In this document: piece after piece, positions 1-50,224 of the stretch
Position numbering within the stretch: the stretch's first letter is position 1
Layout of the letters: the number at the start of each line of letters is the position of its first letter
Source: Flavobacterium sp. NRK1
GTDB taxonomy: Bacteria > Bacteroidota > Bacteroidia > Flavobacteriales > Flavobacteriaceae
Assembly: GCF_024054175.1 (NCBI RefSeq)
Contig: NZ_JAMXLA010000001.1
Coordinates: 1,533,772-1,597,771, forward strand
Direction: 5' to 3'
Length of the DNA stretch: 64,000 bases
The notes under the pieces: model-generated
Database searches by the model: none
What the model was told of the DNA's origin: nothing
What the model saw: the letters and a program-made list of their open reading frames with translations, nothing else
Made by a program: the position numbers and the translations under genes

Positions 1-3000
1 TCAACTGACGAGATCTGTATCAATGCTAATGATGGTAGTATTACAGTAACCCCAACAGATGGTACAGGCCCTTATGCTGTAAGTCTAAACGGAGGTACAT
101 TTACAACACCGCCATCTGCAGGCCCTATTACGATATCTAATCTTTCGGATACTACTTACACAATTGATGTAAGGGATGCTAACGGATGTACTTATACTTT
201 ACCTGCAGCTATAACAATTGCAGAGGGTGTGGATATTCAGGGTGATTATCAAATTTTCCCGACATGTACTAATAATGTAATTGGTAATATAGTATTCCCT
301 ACAGTTAATCCTAATATTCCTGCTAGTGATTTTGAGTGCGCTTTAGACGGAGGTATTTTTGAGCCTGCTGACAGTACTTTCTATCAGGATCTTAGTGCAG
401 GCTCACATACTATTACTTTCAGATATATAAACGGATGTACACAGGATGTAACTTTTACAGTCCCGGCTCTGTTGCCAATATCAGCTTCGATAGATTCTCA
501 AACTAATGTACTTTGCTTTGGCAATATCACAGGAGAGATCACAGTAATGGCTACAGGCGGTACAGGCACATTAAGCTATGCAATTTCAGATCAGACACCG
601 CCTGTATTTGGTACATATCAAAGCACAGGAGTATTTACAGGCCTTGCAGCAGGAGATTATACAATCAGTATAATGGATGATAATGTTGGATGTGAAACTC
701 AGTTAACAACAACTATTACTGAACCAACAGCAGCATTAACCGCTACAGCGAGTTCAACTAATGAGATCTGTATCAATGCTAACGACGGTACTATTACTGT
801 AGTCCCTGTAGGCGGTACAGCACCATATGAAACAAGCCTTAACGGTTCGGCCTTTGCATCGCAGTTAAGCTACACAGGCCTTGCAGATGCTGCTTACACA
901 ATAAATGTAAGGGATGCTAACGGATGTACTTATACTTTACCGGCAGCTATAACAATTGCAGAGGGTGTGGACATGCAGCCTGTAGCAACGGTAACTCCAA
1001 CGTGTGTATCAAACACACCGGATAACGATGTTACCATTGCCATTAATCCGGCAGTAGCTGTATCTGATGTAACGTACTCAATAGACGGAACGAATTACCA
1101 GGCATCGAACACCTTTACAGGGGTTAATCTTGGCGGAGGTACTTATACCGCTTATGCACAGTATGTAAACGGCTGTATCCAGACCACTACGTTCACGATC
1201 ATCGACAGACTGCCTGTAACAGCTACCGCAGCAGTAACAGCAGATGTGTTGTGTTATGGTACTACAACAGGAGAGATAACGGTAACGGCATCGGGCGGTA
1301 CTACACCACTTGAGTATGCTATCTCTACTGCTACACCACCGGTATTCACAACTTACCAGCCATCAAATGTATTTGCAGGCCTTGCGGCAGGCGATTACAC
1401 GATCAGTGTAAGAGATGCTATAGGCTGTGAGGTTGTAACAACAGTGCTTACGGTAACCCAGCCAACAGCAGCATTAACCGCTACAGCGAGTTCAACTAAT
1501 GAGATCTGTATCAATGCTAATGATGGTACAATAACCATAGTCCCTGTAGGCGGTACAGCACCATATGAAACAAGCCTTAACGGTTCGGCCTTTGCTGCAC
1601 AATTAAGCTACACAGGCCTTGCGGATGCTGCTTACACAATAGATGTAAGGGATGCCAACGGATGTACTTATACTTTACCGGCAGCTATAACAATTGCAGA
1701 GGGTGTGGACATGCAGCCTGTAGCAACGGTAACTCCAACATGTGTATCAAACACACCGGATAACGATGTTATTATTGCCATTAACCCGGCAGTAGCTGCA
1801 TCTGATGTAATGTACTCAATAGACGGAACGAATTACCAGGCATCAAACACCTTTACAGGAGTCAGCCTTGCAGGCGGTACTTATACCGCTTATGCACAGC
1901 ATGTAAACGGCTGTATCCAGACGACCACATTCACGATCATAGACAGACTGCCTGTAACAGCTACCGCAGCAGTAACAGCAGATGTATTGTGTTATGGCAA
2001 TACCACAGGAGAGATCACGGTAACAGCAACCGGCGGTACTACACCACTTGAGTATGCTATCTCTACTGCTACACCACCGGTATTCACTGCTTACCAGCCA
2101 TCGAATGTATTTGCAGGCCTTGCGGCAGGCGATTACACGATCAGTATAAGAGATGCTATTGGCTGTGAGGTTATAACAACAGTGCTTACGGTAACCCAGC
2201 CAACAGCAGCATTAACCGCTACAGCTACTTCAACTAATGAGATCTGTATCAATGCTAATGATGGTACAATCACTATAGTCCCTGCAGGCGGTACAGCACC
2301 ATATGAAACAAGCCTTAACGGTTCAGCTTTTGCAGCACAGTTAAGCTACACAGGCCTTGCAGATGCTGCTTACACAATAGATGTAAGGGATGCTAACGGA
2401 TGTACCTACACTTTACCGGCAGCTATAACAATTGCAGAGGGTGTGGATATGCAGCCTGTAGCAACGGTAACCCCAACGTGTGTATCAAACACACCGGATA
2501 ACGATATTACCATTGCCATTAACCAGGCAGTAGCTGCATCAGATGTAACGTACTCAATAGACGGAACGAATTACCAGGCATCGAACACCTTTACAGGGGT
2601 TAGCCTTGCAGGCGGTACTTATACCGCTTATGCACAGCATGTAAACGGCTGTATCCAGACGACCACATTCACGATCATAGACAGACTGCCTGTAACAGCT
2701 ACCGCAGCAGTAACAGCAGATGTATTGTGTTATGGTACTACAACAGGAGAGATCACAGTAACGGCATCGGGCGGTACTACACCACTTGAGTATGCTATCT
2801 CTACTGCTACACCACCTGTATTTACAACTTACCAGCCATCAAATGTATTTGCAGGCCTTGCGGCAGGTGACTATACGATAAGTGTAAGAGACGCTATAGG
2901 CTGTGAGGTTGTAACAACAGTGCTTACAGTAGCCCAGCCAACAGCAGCGTTAGCAGTTACAGTATCTAAAACAGATGAACAATGTCTTAATGCCAATGAT

Positions 3001-5319
3001 GGTACAATTACTATAGTTGCAACAGGCGGTACAGCACCATATCAATCAAGAATAGATTCGGCTGCAGCCTTTACAGCTCAGATGAATTATACAGCTCTTG
3101 CAGATGGTATATATGATGTAGAAGTAGTAGATGCTAACGGATGTTCTTACACAGAACAGATTACCATTGCAACAGGTATACAAATTCAGCCATCACTGCT
3201 TGTAACACAGCAATGTACTGAAACTACAATTGAAGTAAGTGTTAATCCTGCAGTTGTTACAGATGTAATGTATAGCCTGGATGGTGGAACGCCACAGTCA
3301 TCAAATACTTTTGTAGTAGATGGTCTTGATCCTGCGGTTACACATACAATTACGGTTACGCACATTCAGGGATGTAGTGAAGCGGTAGACTTTAACATAA
3401 ATCCTGTTATTCCGATTGTAATGAGTGCACCAACAGTAACAGATGTTGCCTGTCACGGTAAAGCTGTTGGAGCTATTCAGGTTAATGCAACAGGAGGAAC
3501 CGGACCATTACAGTATGCGATTACCTGGAATATCTGGCCAACACCTATTTATGGGCCGTCAAATAACTTTACCGATCTTTTAGCGGGTCAATATACTCTT
3601 TGGGTAAAAGACGCTATGGGTTGTGTGGTTACTACAACAGTAGATGTTTCAGAACCGGCCGAAGCTTTAACATTATCTGCTGTGGCAACAGCCGAAAGCT
3701 GTATTAATGCACATGATGGTACTATTACTATAACGCCACAAGGCGGAGTAGCGCCATATTCTACAGCGATTGTTTCGGCGGTTAACTTCCAACAGGATGT
3801 ACTAACATATTCAAGCCTGTTTGGTGGTACTTATGATGTGTATGTAAGAGATGCTAATGGCTGTTATGCAAAAACAACTGTTACTATAGAAAAAGGTGTT
3901 AACCTTAACCCTTACATACAAACAACCTTAAGCTGTGATAATAACAATCCGGTAAATACAGTAACTGTACTGCTTAATCCGGTTGTTCAAAACCTGGAGT
4001 ATTCATTAACAGGTGCAACGGGTTCATATACGGCTAATAATGTATTTGATATTGCCCCAGGCTCTTACACAGTATATGTTAAGCACATAAACGGATGTAC
4101 AGCACAATTAGACTTTACAGTTCAGGATCGTCCTGCGGTTGTAGCAACAGCATCGTCTGAAGATGCAACATGTAACGGCGTTAATAACGGAAGTATAACA
4201 GTAACGGCTTCAGGAGGAACAGGAACTCTTAAATATGGTATATCACCAGACTTTGCAATGACCCAGAATCCGGTGTTCAATAATCTGTTGGCAGGCAATT
4301 ATACCATAAGGGTAGAAGATGCTTACGGGTGTTATACAGAAGTTCCTGTGGTGGTAAATGAGCCTACAGCTATAGCTGTAACAGTTGTAGATGTACTGCA
4401 GGAAATATGTGTTAATGATGACAACGGTGTTATAGAAATAGGCATAACAGGAGGTACAGGACCTTATGCTACGAGTCTTACGCCTAATGGTGTTTTCGTA
4501 GAAGATCAGATCTTGTTTGATAATCTTGACGGAGGTGTTACTTATACTATTTATGTTAAAGATACTAATGGATGTACCACAACAATTGATGTTCCGCTTG
4601 ATGCGCCAATGGACATTAATGCAACGTCACAGGTAGTATATAATTGTAATGAAAATACAGTAACTATAGTAACAGATGGTAATATAGATCCTACTGAGCT
4701 TACGTATACTATAGAAGGTCCTAAAGGGAATAATCCTCCACAGACATCTAATGTATTTGCTAATCTTCAGGATGGTACCTATACTGTAGAAGTACTTCAT
4801 ATATCCGGGTGTACTGATACAACTTCATTTACAATCGAAAGTACGGACGAATTAACCCTTTTACTTGCAGAAAGCGGACTGAACCAGTTCAAAGCATCTA
4901 CATCGGGTGGTAAAGGACCTTATACTTACACTTTTGAAGGTAATGATATGGGAACCAAAAACACCTTTGTGTATGACCATAGCGGAACATATGTGGTAAC
5001 TGTAACTGATAGCAGGGGCTGTACTACAGAAGCATCTATAGAAGTTAAGTTTATAGATATTATAATACCGGATGTTATTACTCCTGGTGGAGACGGACAA
5101 AACGATACCTGGTCACCGGGCAATACCCAAAACTATCCTAATATCAATACCGATATATTTGACCGTTACGGTAGAAAAGTGGCAACACTTAGACAAGGTC
5201 AGGTATGGGATGGTAAGTATGAAGGAAATGAACTTCCTACGGGAGATTACTGGTACCTGATTAAGCTGGGAGATGCTGACAACAGGGAATTTGTAGGACA
5301 CTTCACTATTTACAGATAA
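1..5319 (+). CDS. SprB-like repeat adhesin with T9SS type B sorting domain (5' end missing)
   Basis: The reading frame is open from base 1, so this is the C-terminal about 1770 residues of a larger protein. It consists of repeated beta-rich modules with recurrent NGC, DANGC and GG-T-PL/PY motifs, typical of SprB repeats of Flavobacterium gliding adhesins. Each module carries spaced cysteines, which could form disulfides outside the cell. The last about 85 residues (from PDVITPGGDGQND to the end, with DIFDRYGRKV and PTGDYWYLI) are a T9SS type B C-terminal sorting domain, also called the gliding motility-associated C-terminal domain. The protein should be exported by the type IX system and displayed on the cell surface. 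The next gene encodes a PorP/SprF-type partner 76 bp downstream, the usual pairing. Role as motility adhesin versus another surface adhesin is inference. Confidence 0.9.
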   Translation, partial: STDEICINANDGSITVTPTDGTGPYAVSLNGGTFTTPPSAGPITISNLSDTTYTIDVRDANGCTYTLPAAITIAEGVDIQGDYQIFPTCTNNVIGNIVFPTVNPNIPASDFECALDGGIFEPADSTFYQDLSAGSHTITFRYINGCTQDVTFTVPALLPISASIDSQTNVLCFGNITGEITVMATGGTGTLSYAISDQTPPVFGTYQSTGVFTGLAAGDYTISIMDDNVGCETQLTTTITEPTAALTATASSTNEICINANDGTITVVPVGGTAPYETSLNGSAFASQLSYTGLADAAYTINVRDANGCTYTLPAAITIAEGVDMQPVATVTPTCVSNTPDNDVTIAINPAVAVSDVTYSIDGTNYQASNTFTGVNLGGGTYTAYAQYVNGCIQTTTFTIIDRLPVTATAAVTADVLCYGTTTGEITVTASGGTTPLEYAISTATPPVFTTYQPSNVFAGLAAGDYTISVRDAIGCEVVTTVLTVTQPTAALTATASSTNEICINANDGTITIVPVGGTAPYETSLNGSAFAAQLSYTGLADAAYTIDVRDANGCTYTLPAAITIAEGVDMQPVATVTPTCVSNTPDNDVIIAINPAVAASDVMYSIDGTNYQASNTFTGVSLAGGTYTAYAQHVNGCIQTTTFTIIDRLPVTATAAVTADVLCYGNTTGEITVTATGGTTPLEYAISTATPPVFTAYQPSNVFAGLAAGDYTISIRDAIGCEVITTVLTVTQPTAALTATATSTNEICINANDGTITIVPAGGTAPYETSLNGSAFAAQLSYTGLADAAYTIDVRDANGCTYTLPAAITIAEGVDMQPVATVTPTCVSNTPDNDITIAINQAVAASDVTYSIDGTNYQASNTFTGVSLAGGTYTAYAQHVNGCIQTTTFTIIDRLPVTATAAVTADVLCYGTTTGEITVTASGGTTPLEYAISTATPPVFTTYQPSNVFAGLAAGDYTISVRDAIGCEVVTTVLTVAQPTAALAVTVSKTDEQCLNANDGTITIVATGGTAPYQSRIDSAAAFTAQMNYTALADGIYDVEVVDANGCSYTEQITIATGIQIQPSLLVTQQCTETTIEVSVNPAVVTDVMYSLDGGTPQSSNTFVVDGLDPAVTHTITVTHIQGCSEAVDFNINPVIPIVMSAPTVTDVACHGKAVGAIQVNATGGTGPLQYAITWNIWPTPIYGPSNNFTDLLAGQYTLWVKDAMGCVVTTTVDVSEPAEALTLSAVATAESCINAHDGTITITPQGGVAPYSTAIVSAVNFQQDVLTYSSLFGGTYDVYVRDANGCYAKTTVTIEKGVNLNPYIQTTLSCDNNNPVNTVTVLLNPVVQNLEYSLTGATGSYTANNVFDIAPGSYTVYVKHINGCTAQLDFTVQDRPAVVATASSEDATCNGVNNGSITVTASGGTGTLKYGISPDFAMTQNPVFNNLLAGNYTIRVEDAYGCYTEVPVVVNEPTAIAVTVVDVLQEICVNDDNGVIEIGITGGTGPYATSLTPNGVFVEDQILFDNLDGGVTYTIYVKDTNGCTTTIDVPLDAPMDINATSQVVYNCNENTVTIVTDGNIDPTELTYTIEGPKGNNPPQTSNVFANLQDGTYTVEVLHISGCTDTTSFTIESTDELTLLLAESGLNQFKASTSGGKGPYTYTFEGNDMGTKNTFVYDHSGTYVVTVTDSRGCTTEASIEVKFIDIIIPDVITPGGDGQNDTWSPGNTQNYPNINTDIFDRYGRKVATLRQGQVWDGKYEGNELPTGDYWYLIKLGDADNREFVGHFTIYR
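724..2937 (+). repeat. Three tandem near-identical 738-bp modules (246 aa each)
   Basis: Units run 724-1461, 1462-2199 and 2200-2937, each starting at the codons for PTAAL. The spacing is exactly 738 bp each time. By eye, units 1 and 2 differ at about 14 of 246 residues. The fourth unit, from 2938, keeps the same spacing for its first motif but has diverged strongly. The preceding partial unit (motif CINAND at about base 16) is 753 bp before the first, so it is also diverged. Confidence 0.92.
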
Positions 5320-5395: not shown

Positions 5396-6340
5396 ATGAA
5401 AAAAATATATACCCTGTTAGTATTAGTTTTAGCTTTTCCATACTTAAATGCGCAGGAGCTTAACATTCCTACATTTACACAATACCTTGCAGATAACCCT
5501 TTTGTTATTTCTCCCGCTTATGCAGGTATCGGAGACCACGTTAAAATAAGGGCTAACGGACTTACGCAGTGGGTAGGAATTAAAGATGCACCTGATAACC
5601 AGTCGCTCGCTGCAGATATGAGAATATCAGCAAATAGCGGTATAGGAGTATTTTTATATAATGATAAAAACGGCTATACAAGGCAGTATGGTGGCAGGCT
5701 ATCTTATGCTCACCATATTATTCTTGATCCTTACTATGATCAGTACCTTTCATTTGGTATATCCTATAACCTTAACCAGTTTAAAATTGATACGGAAGAT
5801 ATACAAACTCCCGATCAGTCTATTACAAATAACAGATATACAGTAAACCATAACTTTGATGTGGCATTGCTTTATCGCTTTGAAGATTTTTATGCCAGCT
5901 TTACGGCGGGTAATATACTAAACAAGAATATAGACCTTTTTGCTACTAATGAACCTAAGCGGCTTAGAAATTACCAGTTATATACAGGTTATGTTTTTAA
6001 AAGCGGTGATGCTCTTGAAATAGAACCGTCGGCTTATGTTCAGTATTTTGAAAGTGACGGAAGGTCCAGTACCGACTTTAATATGAAGTTTCGTTTTCTT
6101 GATGGTGAAAACTATTACTGGGCAGGTATAAACTACCGTTTTCTTAACGACCAGTTTGGAGACCCATTAAATATTGGGCCAATGGTAGGTTTAAAAGTAT
6201 CTAACTTTTATTTTGCTTATTCATATCAAATAACTACTAACGAATTACTGGCTACAAACAGCGGAACCCACATGGTAACGCTTGGTATTGATATATTCCA
6301 GGGTGTAAGTGACTGTCCTTGTACACACGGAGCTCATTAA
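5396..6340 (+). CDS. PorP/SprF family type IX secretion membrane protein
   Basis: This 314-residue protein has an N-terminal signal peptide ending near LNAQ and then the family hallmark of an early segment TQYLADNPFVISPAYAG. The rest is predicted outer-membrane beta-barrel, with alternating aromatic strands ending in GIDIF. PorP/SprF proteins assist T9SS export or anchoring of a particular large adhesin, usually the one encoded just upstream. Here the upstream gene is exactly such an adhesin, with a type B sorting domain. The ATG at 5396 gives a clean signal peptide. It is probably co-transcribed with the adhesin, ending at the hairpin terminator at about 6404. Confidence 0.92.
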   Translation: MKKIYTLLVLVLAFPYLNAQELNIPTFTQYLADNPFVISPAYAGIGDHVKIRANGLTQWVGIKDAPDNQSLAADMRISANSGIGVFLYNDKNGYTRQYGGRLSYAHHIILDPYYDQYLSFGISYNLNQFKIDTEDIQTPDQSITNNRYTVNHNFDVALLYRFEDFYASFTAGNILNKNIDLFATNEPKRLRNYQLYTGYVFKSGDALEIEPSAYVQYFESDGRSSTDFNMKFRFLDGENYYWAGINYRFLNDQFGDPLNIGPMVGLKVSNFYFAYSYQITTNELLATNSGTHMVTLGIDIFQGVSDCPCTHGAH

Positions 6341-48517: not shown

Positions 48518-50224
48518 TTATTTCTTAATTATATTAATTGTCTTGCTCTTTTCTCCTGATAATATGGTTACAAAGTACATTCCACTATTCAGGTCAGAAA
48601 GATGTATTACACATTCATTATTATTTACTGTGTTAGTAAATATGGTTTGTCCGAGCGTATTAGTTACTGTTAAGGAATCTATAGTGTTATTATTTTTAAT
48701 GTGCATTACATCAGTTACGGGGTTAGGATAATGAATAAGTCCTTCAAAAGAAGTGTCAGCATTGTTTAAAAGTATACTATATACTTGTACGGCAAGTCTT
48801 TCGGTGCTTTCTATACCATAAAGTGTTTGTGAGGCATAGTATGTTGTTCCATCGATAAGCAATGTATCGTTTGGCAGTGAAGTTTCAGTTTCTCCCGGCG
48901 GTGTCTCGGTGCCGTCAGTAGCATACCAGGTTATATTTTCACCTTCTACAATAAGGTCAGCCAGTGTGCCATCTAATGAATAGCTCTGTATTGATTCTCC
49001 TGTAGGTGGAGTAGTAACATAATCTCCCGGTAATACAAGTATTGTAATACTACCTGTAGTAACACATCCTGTTTCAGTATTTCCTATAGAATAATATACA
49101 TCTGCTGATGTTATTATTACAAAGTCACTTGTCAGAGGTGAATTATTTGCTTCATCACTGTAAAGATTTACTTCAAATTCCGATCCATTATAATCCTCTA
49201 TCATATCCATTAGGTTTGCATATGACATCGTGATAGTTTCATCGTCAGGATTATTATCTTCATCGTCTATTAGATAAAGGTTTGCCAAAGGACTTAATGG
49301 TGAAGGATTAGTGTTGATAGTGAAAGAATTTAAGGCATAGTTATCAGCTTCGTCAATCTTTGTGACTCTGGTATATAATGTTTGGACATTGCTATTTATA
49401 TTTATATAACTAGCCGGATTTGGAATCGCATTTACATTTGCTTCTGCATCTTCCGGAATTTCGTAGTAGGCTACAGTATAATTATTTGAATCTAATCCTT
49501 CTAAAAGTATTTCTGTATTGATCGTTAGATCAAAAGAAGTATAGCCGTCGTTGTTTTCGTCACATATATTCAAGTCATTTGGAGTTCCTGTTTCAAAATC
49601 ATTTACAACAATATTGAATGGTGCAGTGGATGCGCATCCTGTTACTAAACTTTCAGAACGGATATACAATGTTGCTGAAGTGGTTGAATATTCAAAAGGA
49701 TTAGCAATAGGATTACTAGCGGTAAGGGCATCGGCTGCAGTGATGTAATAAGTAATTTGTAAATTGTCTGCAGACTCACCGTTCAGAACTATCTCATCCA
49801 ATTGTGTAAGGTCTATAATAGCAATACCGTCTGAAGGGATATCATTATCAAATACAAATTGTGTTGCTAATAATGGAATCATTGGGCTTGGTTCCACTAT
49901 AAGTATAAAGTCGGCAATTGCATAATTAGATGAATTGTTTAATTCTTCAACCCTTGCAAATACTGTAGTATTTGAAGAATAATAATATTCAGGTGCCGAC
50001 AATGGATTAACTCCGTTTTGGGCATCAGTCAGTGTTTCATGATAAGTTACATTGAAATCGGCCGAATTAAGATTCTGAAGTAAAACAGGAGTGTTAAATG
50101 TAAGGTCAAAATAACCTGAAATACCGGAATTGTCTGAACATACACTTAAACCATCCGGTTCTCCAATATTCGGTTGGGCATAGGTAAATGTGCTAAAAAG
50201 AAATAAAAGTAATAGTTTTTTCAT
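48518..50224 (-). CDS. Secreted repeat protein with T9SS type A sorting domain
   Basis: A 568-residue protein: signal peptide to about residue 16, at least three related beta-modules of about 130 residues (LTFNTPVLLQNLNSADFNV, LDEIVLNGESADNLQI, LTINTEILLEGLDSNNYTV), an Ig-like stretch (NITWYATDGTETPPGE), and a C-terminal T9SS type A signal (LIHYPNPVTDVMHIKN through SGMYFVTILSG). Exported to the cell surface or medium; likely an adhesin or matrix protein, but no enzyme domain is visible. The 127-residue orphan module at 50443 is related in sequence. Confidence 0.85.
   Translation of the reverse strand: MKKLLLLFLFSTFTYAQPNIGEPDGLSVCSDNSGISGYFDLTFNTPVLLQNLNSADFNVTYHETLTDAQNGVNPLSAPEYYYSSNTTVFARVEELNNSSNYAIADFILIVEPSPMIPLLATQFVFDNDIPSDGIAIIDLTQLDEIVLNGESADNLQITYYITAADALTASNPIANPFEYSTTSATLYIRSESLVTGCASTAPFNIVVNDFETGTPNDLNICDENNDGYTSFDLTINTEILLEGLDSNNYTVAYYEIPEDAEANVNAIPNPASYININSNVQTLYTRVTKIDEADNYALNSFTINTNPSPLSPLANLYLIDDEDNNPDDETITMSYANLMDMIEDYNGSEFEVNLYSDEANNSPLTSDFVIITSADVYYSIGNTETGCVTTGSITILVLPGDYVTTPPTGESIQSYSLDGTLADLIVEGENITWYATDGTETPPGETETSLPNDTLLIDGTTYYASQTLYGIESTERLAVQVYSILLNNADTSFEGLIHYPNPVTDVMHIKNNNTIDSLTVTNTLGQTIFTNTVNNNECVIHLSDLNSGMYFVTILSGEKSKTINIIKK

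Follow-up and report, generated by a model that had tools for sequence, protein, structure and literature searches.

In-frame tandem modules with a mosaic pattern in the probable gliding adhesin SprB of Flavobacterium sp. NRK1

Gliding in the Bacteroidota depends on a giant adhesin that is pulled along the cell. In Flavobacterium johnsoniae, the adhesin SprB is described as a protein of 6497 amino acids (PMC9870892) that SprF holds at the cell surface (PMC9143113), and an operon sprCDBF has been described (PMC5879114). A Cys-Xaa-Cys motif of SprF is reported to be needed in this species for normal attachment to the moving track, via a disulfide to GldK (PMC12635249). Among the literature matches listed (titles and openings of abstracts, with few subscription journals covered), none concerns module or tip exchange in SprB.

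With respect to their repeats, the closest known kind is the Periscope Proteins (SasG, Rib, Sgo_0707 and CdrA), whose highly similar tandem surface domains vary in copy number (PMC8201768, PMC9704523). The main text of PMC8201768 has no word beginning with Bacteroid or Flavobacteri, and that of PMC9704523 none beginning with Bacteroid or SprB. Within the same genus, a gliding-associated protein of F. psychrophilum is reported to have 55 repeat units in the type strain and, in four isolates with assemblies of long and short reads, 35, 69, 87 and 88 (PMC8400371). By annotation it is a protein of a similar kind, and the text covered neither calls it SprB nor states a unit length.

We analysed a window of 64,000 nucleotides from Flavobacterium sp. 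NRK1 (G000:C1:1533772-1597771), whose first base falls within the 3' portion of a giant gene. In an open-frame scan, frame 1 is open from base 1 through the stop codon at 5317-5319. The rest of the gene lies upstream, in the locus L009, with an ATG at L009:6646. It consists, in order, of a 3944-residue piece, a run of 10 N, a 500-residue piece, another run of 10 N immediately before base 1, and the window portion of 1772 residues, giving a protein of at least 6216 amino acids summed over the three pieces. Judged by eye, its N terminus is signal-peptide-like. The window itself contains no N. Both 10-N runs sit inside an array of repeated modules and are taken as gap placeholders, not true lengths, so the assembly does not settle the module number. 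Comparison by eye with sister modules puts the missing DNA at about 48 bp in the first gap and about 87 bp in the second if nothing else is absent, and whole modules could also be missing. A frameshift or broken gene near L009:18525 was considered and rejected, since the frame break coincides with a 10-N placeholder. A scan with a single protein confirmed no named relative. In a set of at least 80 named loci from an alignment scan, none of the 80 listed is titled F. johnsoniae, and the adhesin-like ORF hits a contig end in 16 of them; this class of gene often breaks draft assemblies, and gene lengths of such adhesins in short-read genomes may be unreliable.

The domain content is that of a giant surface adhesin, as the earlier note had claimed. 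SprB repeats (PF13573) are found in all three pieces (E 1.2e-141, 1.8e-34 and 6.4e-95), with 17, 4 and 12 passing stretches, respectively. Towards the C terminus, at 3658-5064 on the plus strand, further diverged SprB-type domains are detected by Pfam in the translation of the whole ORF. The ORF ends with a type B sorting domain of the type 9 secretion system (T9SS) at 5065-5316 on the same strand (TIGR04131 / PF13585), for which TIGR04131 scores 80.6 bits against a cut-off of 35 (E 7e-23). The next gene (5396-6340, plus strand) is sprF-like and encodes a 314-residue PorP/SprF outer-membrane carrier (PF11751, E 4.3e-72). Its C-terminal tail, ...GVSDCPCTHGAH, bears a Cys-Xaa-Cys motif, namely Cys-Pro-Cys (CPC) plus five residues at the end. 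Of the genome's 8 PorP/SprF proteins, 2 have such a tail. It is present in all 11 readable adhesin-neighbour proteins from 15 adhesin loci tried, this genome included; G333, G055, G111 and G362 gave no readout. Directly upstream of the adhesin are a sorting-domain protein and a 649-residue PorP/SprF protein, sprC- and sprD-like by place. The gene order is sorting-domain protein, large PorP/SprF protein, giant adhesin and SprF-like protein.

From its domains, the tail motif and the gene order, the giant gene is very probably sprB, encoding the gliding adhesin. Like SprB of F. johnsoniae, the product is a giant repetitive protein with SprB repeats and a type B T9SS sorting domain, accompanied by an SprF-like carrier with a Cys-Xaa-Cys tail and by sprC/sprD-like genes upstream. 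It differs in its array, as the parts of the SprB literature covered describe no amplification of a whole 246-residue module. The gene might instead encode a different adhesin with SprB repeats and a PorP-like partner, one that the gliding machinery does not move. At least two other sites of the genome match the sorting-domain end (C1:723712-724254 and C1:222444-222839), and a Cys-Xaa-Cys tail, here CNC, is also found on one more of the PorP/SprF proteins that the genome encodes. However, the gene order fits the described operon sprCDBF (PMC5879114), the tail is as reported for SprF (PMC12635249), and the length of at least 6216 residues compares with the 6497 given for F. johnsoniae SprB (PMC9870892). 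We consider such a non-sprB adhesin quite unlikely and refer to the gene as sprB below.

The part of the array inside the window is built of modules of about 246 residues. Six cysteines, two per domain, are invariant in 24 of 24 aligned modules, of which 4 lie in the window and the other 20 come from a set of 23 detected in named loci. An AlphaFold2 model of one module (unit 2, see below), computed on this 24-module alignment, is all beta, with a mean pLDDT of 94.9 and a pTM of 0.75. The module is read from this model as three Ig-like domains, A, B and C, predicted to form beta domains in series with one cysteine pair each. The best PDB matches of the model in Foldseek are GhpA of Aureispira (E 3.8e-06) and SiiE of Salmonella (E 8.3e-06), and further matches include Ig-domain proteins such as NCAM. 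GhpA and SiiE resemble the module model in being chains of Ig-like domains from giant adhesins; the query-normalised TM-scores of 0.41-0.61 and identities of 15-21% indicate a resemblance of fold, not family membership. Compared by sequence with solved structures, unit 1 had one weak match (E 0.012); neither the C-terminal part nor the SprF-like protein gave a match at the cut-offs chosen.

As the earlier note had described, the segment 724-2937 consists of exactly three 738-bp modules in register. Unit 1 (724-1461; 246 residues), unit 2 (1462-2199) and unit 3 (2200-2937), all on the plus strand, align without gaps. In unit 1, the module alignment and the structure model place domain A at 724-963, B at 964-1209 and C at 1210-1461. 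The units differ at 46 (1/2), 44 (1/3) and 47 (2/3) positions per 738 bp, which corresponds to nucleotide identities of 93.8, 94.0 and 93.6%; units 1 and 3 are 94-95% identical to unit 2 in amino acids. Tandem Repeats Finder, with a longest period of 500, lists nothing for the three units. The variable sites comprise 21 unit-1, 24 unit-2 and 22 unit-3 singletons and one three-state site, and third codon positions account for 48 of the 67 two-state sites. Pairwise dS is 0.19-0.21 and dN/dS 0.11-0.14, the latter indicating that the high protein identity of the units stems largely from purifying selection.

A recent origin of the units, which had also been proposed, is not supported by these values. 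The sister species G130 (a single contig) and G384 (a draft), which form a close pair, show a dS of 0.21-0.30 in the array and core of the same gene, 0.39 in the sprC-like and 0.34 in the sprD-like gene, a range of 0.21-0.39 that leaves out the tip, the first module and the signal peptide. Since the silent divergence between units is similar to that between sister-species orthologues, the units would not be very recent copies, unless the rates of the lineages differ. The higher G+C content (0.43-0.44) in the first 4 kb of the window had prompted us to consider biased gene conversion. This was dropped, as G+C at four-fold sites is higher in the arrays than in the non-repeat parts in only 7 of 13 genes.

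The differences between the units form a patchwork. Adjacent variable sites are of like type 36 times, against 21.4 expected (p=2e-4), third positions taken alone give p=0.0013, and a run of 11 consecutive unit-1 singletons has p=3e-4. The strongest conversion-like tract in the alignment is a stretch of 134 bp in unit 2 (1864-1997, plus strand) that is identical to its partner in unit 3 (2602-2735, plus strand), with 11 sites at which unit 1 departs from the other two. The longest perfect identities are 134 bp for units 2/3, 83 bp for 1/2 and 61 bp for 1/3. MaxChi, a recombination test of the kind the earlier note had suggested, places a break in unit 2 between offsets 555 and 558 (p=0.0036) and in unit 3 between offsets 525 and 537 (p=0.010), and finds none in unit 1 (p=0.50; three units tested).

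In residues, unit 3 agrees with unit 2 at module positions 26, 46, 61, 113, 135, 137 and 147 and with unit 1 at 104, 117, 180, 190, 210, 229 and 238, while units 1 and 2 agree at 10, 29, 103, 109 and 245. The pattern quoted earlier, with parts of the first half of unit 3 resembling unit 2 and its second half resembling unit 1, is right in kind and holds roughly at this level but is not clean in nucleotides: past offset 537, unit-2 and unit-3 singletons alternate, with a single unit-1 singleton at 555. Sites polarised with an outgroup module give apparent shared derived states for the pairs 1/2, 1/3 and 2/3 of 7, 6 and 3, with 19 of 48 sites ambiguous. This outgroup is distant (58-59% identical in B, 68-71% in C), and parallel change at such a distance could be behind part of the shared states.

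The patchwork may alternatively have arisen by simple stepwise divergence after one old triplication, through chance and multi-nucleotide changes. The nearly equal, star-like numbers of singletons (21, 24 and 22) would fit such a history, as would the lack of a MaxChi break in unit 1. When same-type sites within 2, 3, 6, 8 or 12 bp are merged, clustering has p=0.0026, 0.057, 0.14, 0.076 and 0.0098, and the values at three of the five distances (0.057, 0.14 and 0.076) are likewise compatible with stepwise divergence. Another merged-site test, shuffled after merging, gave p=0.76; that procedure is biased against clustering and was replaced. The unmerged adjacency, the 11-site run, the third positions and the breaks in units 2 and 3 argue against divergence without conversion, as does the excess of conversion-like sites between the modules of G130 and G384 described below. 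On balance this history is unlikely. The proposal of whole-module duplication with partial conversion is favoured by the clustering (p=2e-4); the effect is modest and weakens once close sites are merged. We regard short-tract conversion among the three units as likely, with a clustering signal that appears real but moderate.

The number of units and their mosaic could also be unreal, if units 1-3 were collapsed or chimeric products of short-read assembly. The array is interrupted by the two 10-N gaps, one of them directly before base 1. As noted above, the ORF meets a contig end in 16 of the 80 named loci listed, and the adhesin gene of G333 contains a 604-N run and that of G111 a contig end. 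However, reads of at least 150 bp would span even the longest stretch of perfect identity between units, at 134 bp. The window has no N, the frame is open throughout, and dN/dS between units is 0.11-0.14. An assembly artefact is very unlikely. We consider it probable that units 1-3 are SprB-type stalk modules copied in frame in tandem, which diverged under purifying selection with occasional short-tract conversion. Unequal crossing-over, or a tandem duplication equivalent to it, would have copied the 246-residue module of three Ig-like domains.

The modules that flank the units are diverged, in agreement with the earlier description. The array reads, 5' to 3', M1 (X), M2 (Z), M3 (X), gap, M4 (X), M5 (X), gap, M6 (Z), M7-M9 (Y, units 1-3) and the diverged M10, where the types X, Y and Z are our own labels, defined by domains B and C. 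M6 (1-723, plus strand) has its 5' end cut by the assembly gap, and the domain matrix places A at 1-225, B at 226-465 and C at 466-723. M10 occupies 2938-3657 on the plus strand, as delimited by the module alignment, and has a counterpart in Flavobacterium sp. AG291. To units 1-3, M6 is 75 (A), 46-48 (B) and 59-61% (C) identical, and M10 67-70 (A), 49-50 (B) and 54-56% (C), far below the 93.6-94.0% between units.

The similarity of M6 to other modules depends on the domain. Its A domain is 94-97% identical to A of M2, M4 and M5, while its B domain is only 48-49% identical to B of M4 and M5; for M5 and M6, the values are 96.0% (A), 49.1% (B) and 58.1% (C). M1 shows the reversed pattern against M3-M5, with 74-78% in A and 93-97% in B and C. 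The A domains common to types X and Z, together with the reversal in M1, show that single domains have been exchanged as well. A tree separates the modules of this genome, as one group, from those of G130 and G384 (support 1.0).

The genus was sampled with 398 genomes, one per species. A query with the C-terminal DNA finds matches in 187 of them, and in genomes other than this one the longest of these show about 66-70% identity. In G130 and G384, the adhesin gene comprises 7265 and 6738 codons including the stop. Over 7289 aligned columns the two proteins are separated by one large indel of exactly 492 residues, which equals two modules, and the remaining indels are of at most 11 residues. The single module G384_07 faces three modules of G130 (07, 08 and 09) at 93.2-93.6% identity, while G130_07-09 are 99.1-99.7% identical to their best sister copy. 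For each of the other 11 among the 12 G384 modules there is a single best G130 partner, at 90-96%. The tree recovers 10 of these 11 single pairs as clades and places G130_07-09 in a clade of their own (0.92) next to G384_07; pair 05 is not a clade, as G384_05 falls with the pair G130_10/G384_08 (0.58). The dS between G130_08 and G130_09 is 0.011, and G130 contains a perfect 815-bp repeat at a lag of 738.

These alignments indicate that one module became three in frame in G130. Given the draft assembly, module 07 of G384 could be a collapsed array, and the triplication in G130 would still be recent in that case. Module copy number differs between the adhesin sequences of the two sister species, the shorter one being from the draft. 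The stretch of module G130_00 is strongly diverged from its counterpart (dS 1.1), as if it had been replaced.

Wholesale concerted evolution in G130 and G384 was rejected, as the modules pair by position. We used a quartet test, in which the pattern shared by paralogues within each species should be about as frequent as the cross pattern if only parallel changes had occurred. The counts were 222 and 122 over 66 module pairs, which are not independent, and 71 and 17 over the 7 pairs with an identity of at least 0.8 in G130, a choice that favours converted pairs. Modules 12/13 gave 20 against 4 (p=0.00077; about 0.05 when corrected for 66 pairs), and modules 05/10 gave no excess (3 against 4). 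A lineage-specific mutation bias could add parallel changes to the excess. The test points to conversion between modules since the two species split, and this conversion would be partial, since the orthologue pattern dominates (10923).

The N-terminal end of the adhesin, which we infer to be the binding tip, appears to have a different history from the core. G130 and G384 are 94.2% identical in core residues 1051-2900, but only 51.8% over residues 26-450 and 54.8% over 26-700. Residues 26-450 of G130 are closer to F. endophyticum (72.4%) and to the genome studied here (68.2%), and the N-terminal end of G384 is closer to F. beibuense F44-8 (78.6%). The two sisters have N-terminal ends of different classes. 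Their divergence fades at about residue 900-1050, most of the remaining gene is about 85-98% identical in residues, and the first 77 bases, encoding the putative signal peptide, are still 96% identical. For seven orthologues, the tip rejects the core tree and the core rejects the tip tree (delta logL 349 and 759; AU test p 2.4e-08 and 0.0014). The simplest reading of these sequences is that the N-terminal end was replaced by recombination. Across this genome (L009:6646 to about 9350, about 900 N-terminal residues) and close relatives, two classes of N-terminal end occur.

Arrays of other units are found in relatives. The counterpart of M10 in Flavobacterium sp. AG291 (G033), at L067:8504-9241, also borders an amplified array: it is preceded by some 13 copies of one domain of 79-80 residues, with a lag of 237-240 bp over about 3.1 kb. 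As AG291 amplifies another unit in the same slot, the amplified unit has turned over between the two lineages. Near-identical tandem modules, defined by 200-bp windows at 90% identity or more, are the exception: within the last 11 kb of the gene they occur in 9 of the 80 named loci listed. The top lags in those loci are 153, 717, 738, 957 or about 1720-1920 bp, the 153-bp lag of L130 not being module-sized. A tenth locus, L068, was dropped as an artefact of N aligned against N.

By analogy with the described gliding systems, the T9SS would export the adhesin, which the SprF-like protein would hold while it moves along the GldK track, and the number of modules would set the distance of the N-terminal end from the cell. 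With the Periscope Proteins it shares tandem, highly similar folded domains whose repeat number, judging from G130 and G384, shifts by whole units, between a presumed functional N-terminal end and a C-terminal anchor. It differs in that the unit is a three-domain module, with a silent divergence between units of about 0.2, and in that the anchor is a T9SS carrier that is probably moving. We tentatively propose that SprB-type adhesins are mobile "periscopes", in which gain and loss of whole modules, exchange of tracts and replacement of the tip might let reach and binding evolve apart from the anchor. If length steps by the module and the tip is exchangeable, natural variants could be used to test leg length and tip chemistry against gliding and choice of surface.

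Further observations concern other genes of this genome and family. At 48518-50224 of the window, on the minus strand, a 568-residue protein carries another T9SS C-terminal sorting domain (PF18962) and no other assignment at E 1e-10. The PorP/SprF protein L152 (G000:C1:756269-757141) has Cys-Asn-Cys near its end and may be the carrier of a further mobile adhesin. Three genes of PorP/SprF type that lie far apart (L149, L150 and L151; G000:C1 near 917 kb, 1487 kb and 1213 kb) have identical C-terminal tails and are 93-96% identical in DNA across about 1-1.3 kb; they are read as dispersed recent duplicates or converted copies. In other Flavobacteriaceae (L093, L101, L084, L126, L144 and G049), the same kind of gene repeats a super-module of about 1.7-1.9 kb, longer than the 738-bp module, in near-identical tandem copies.
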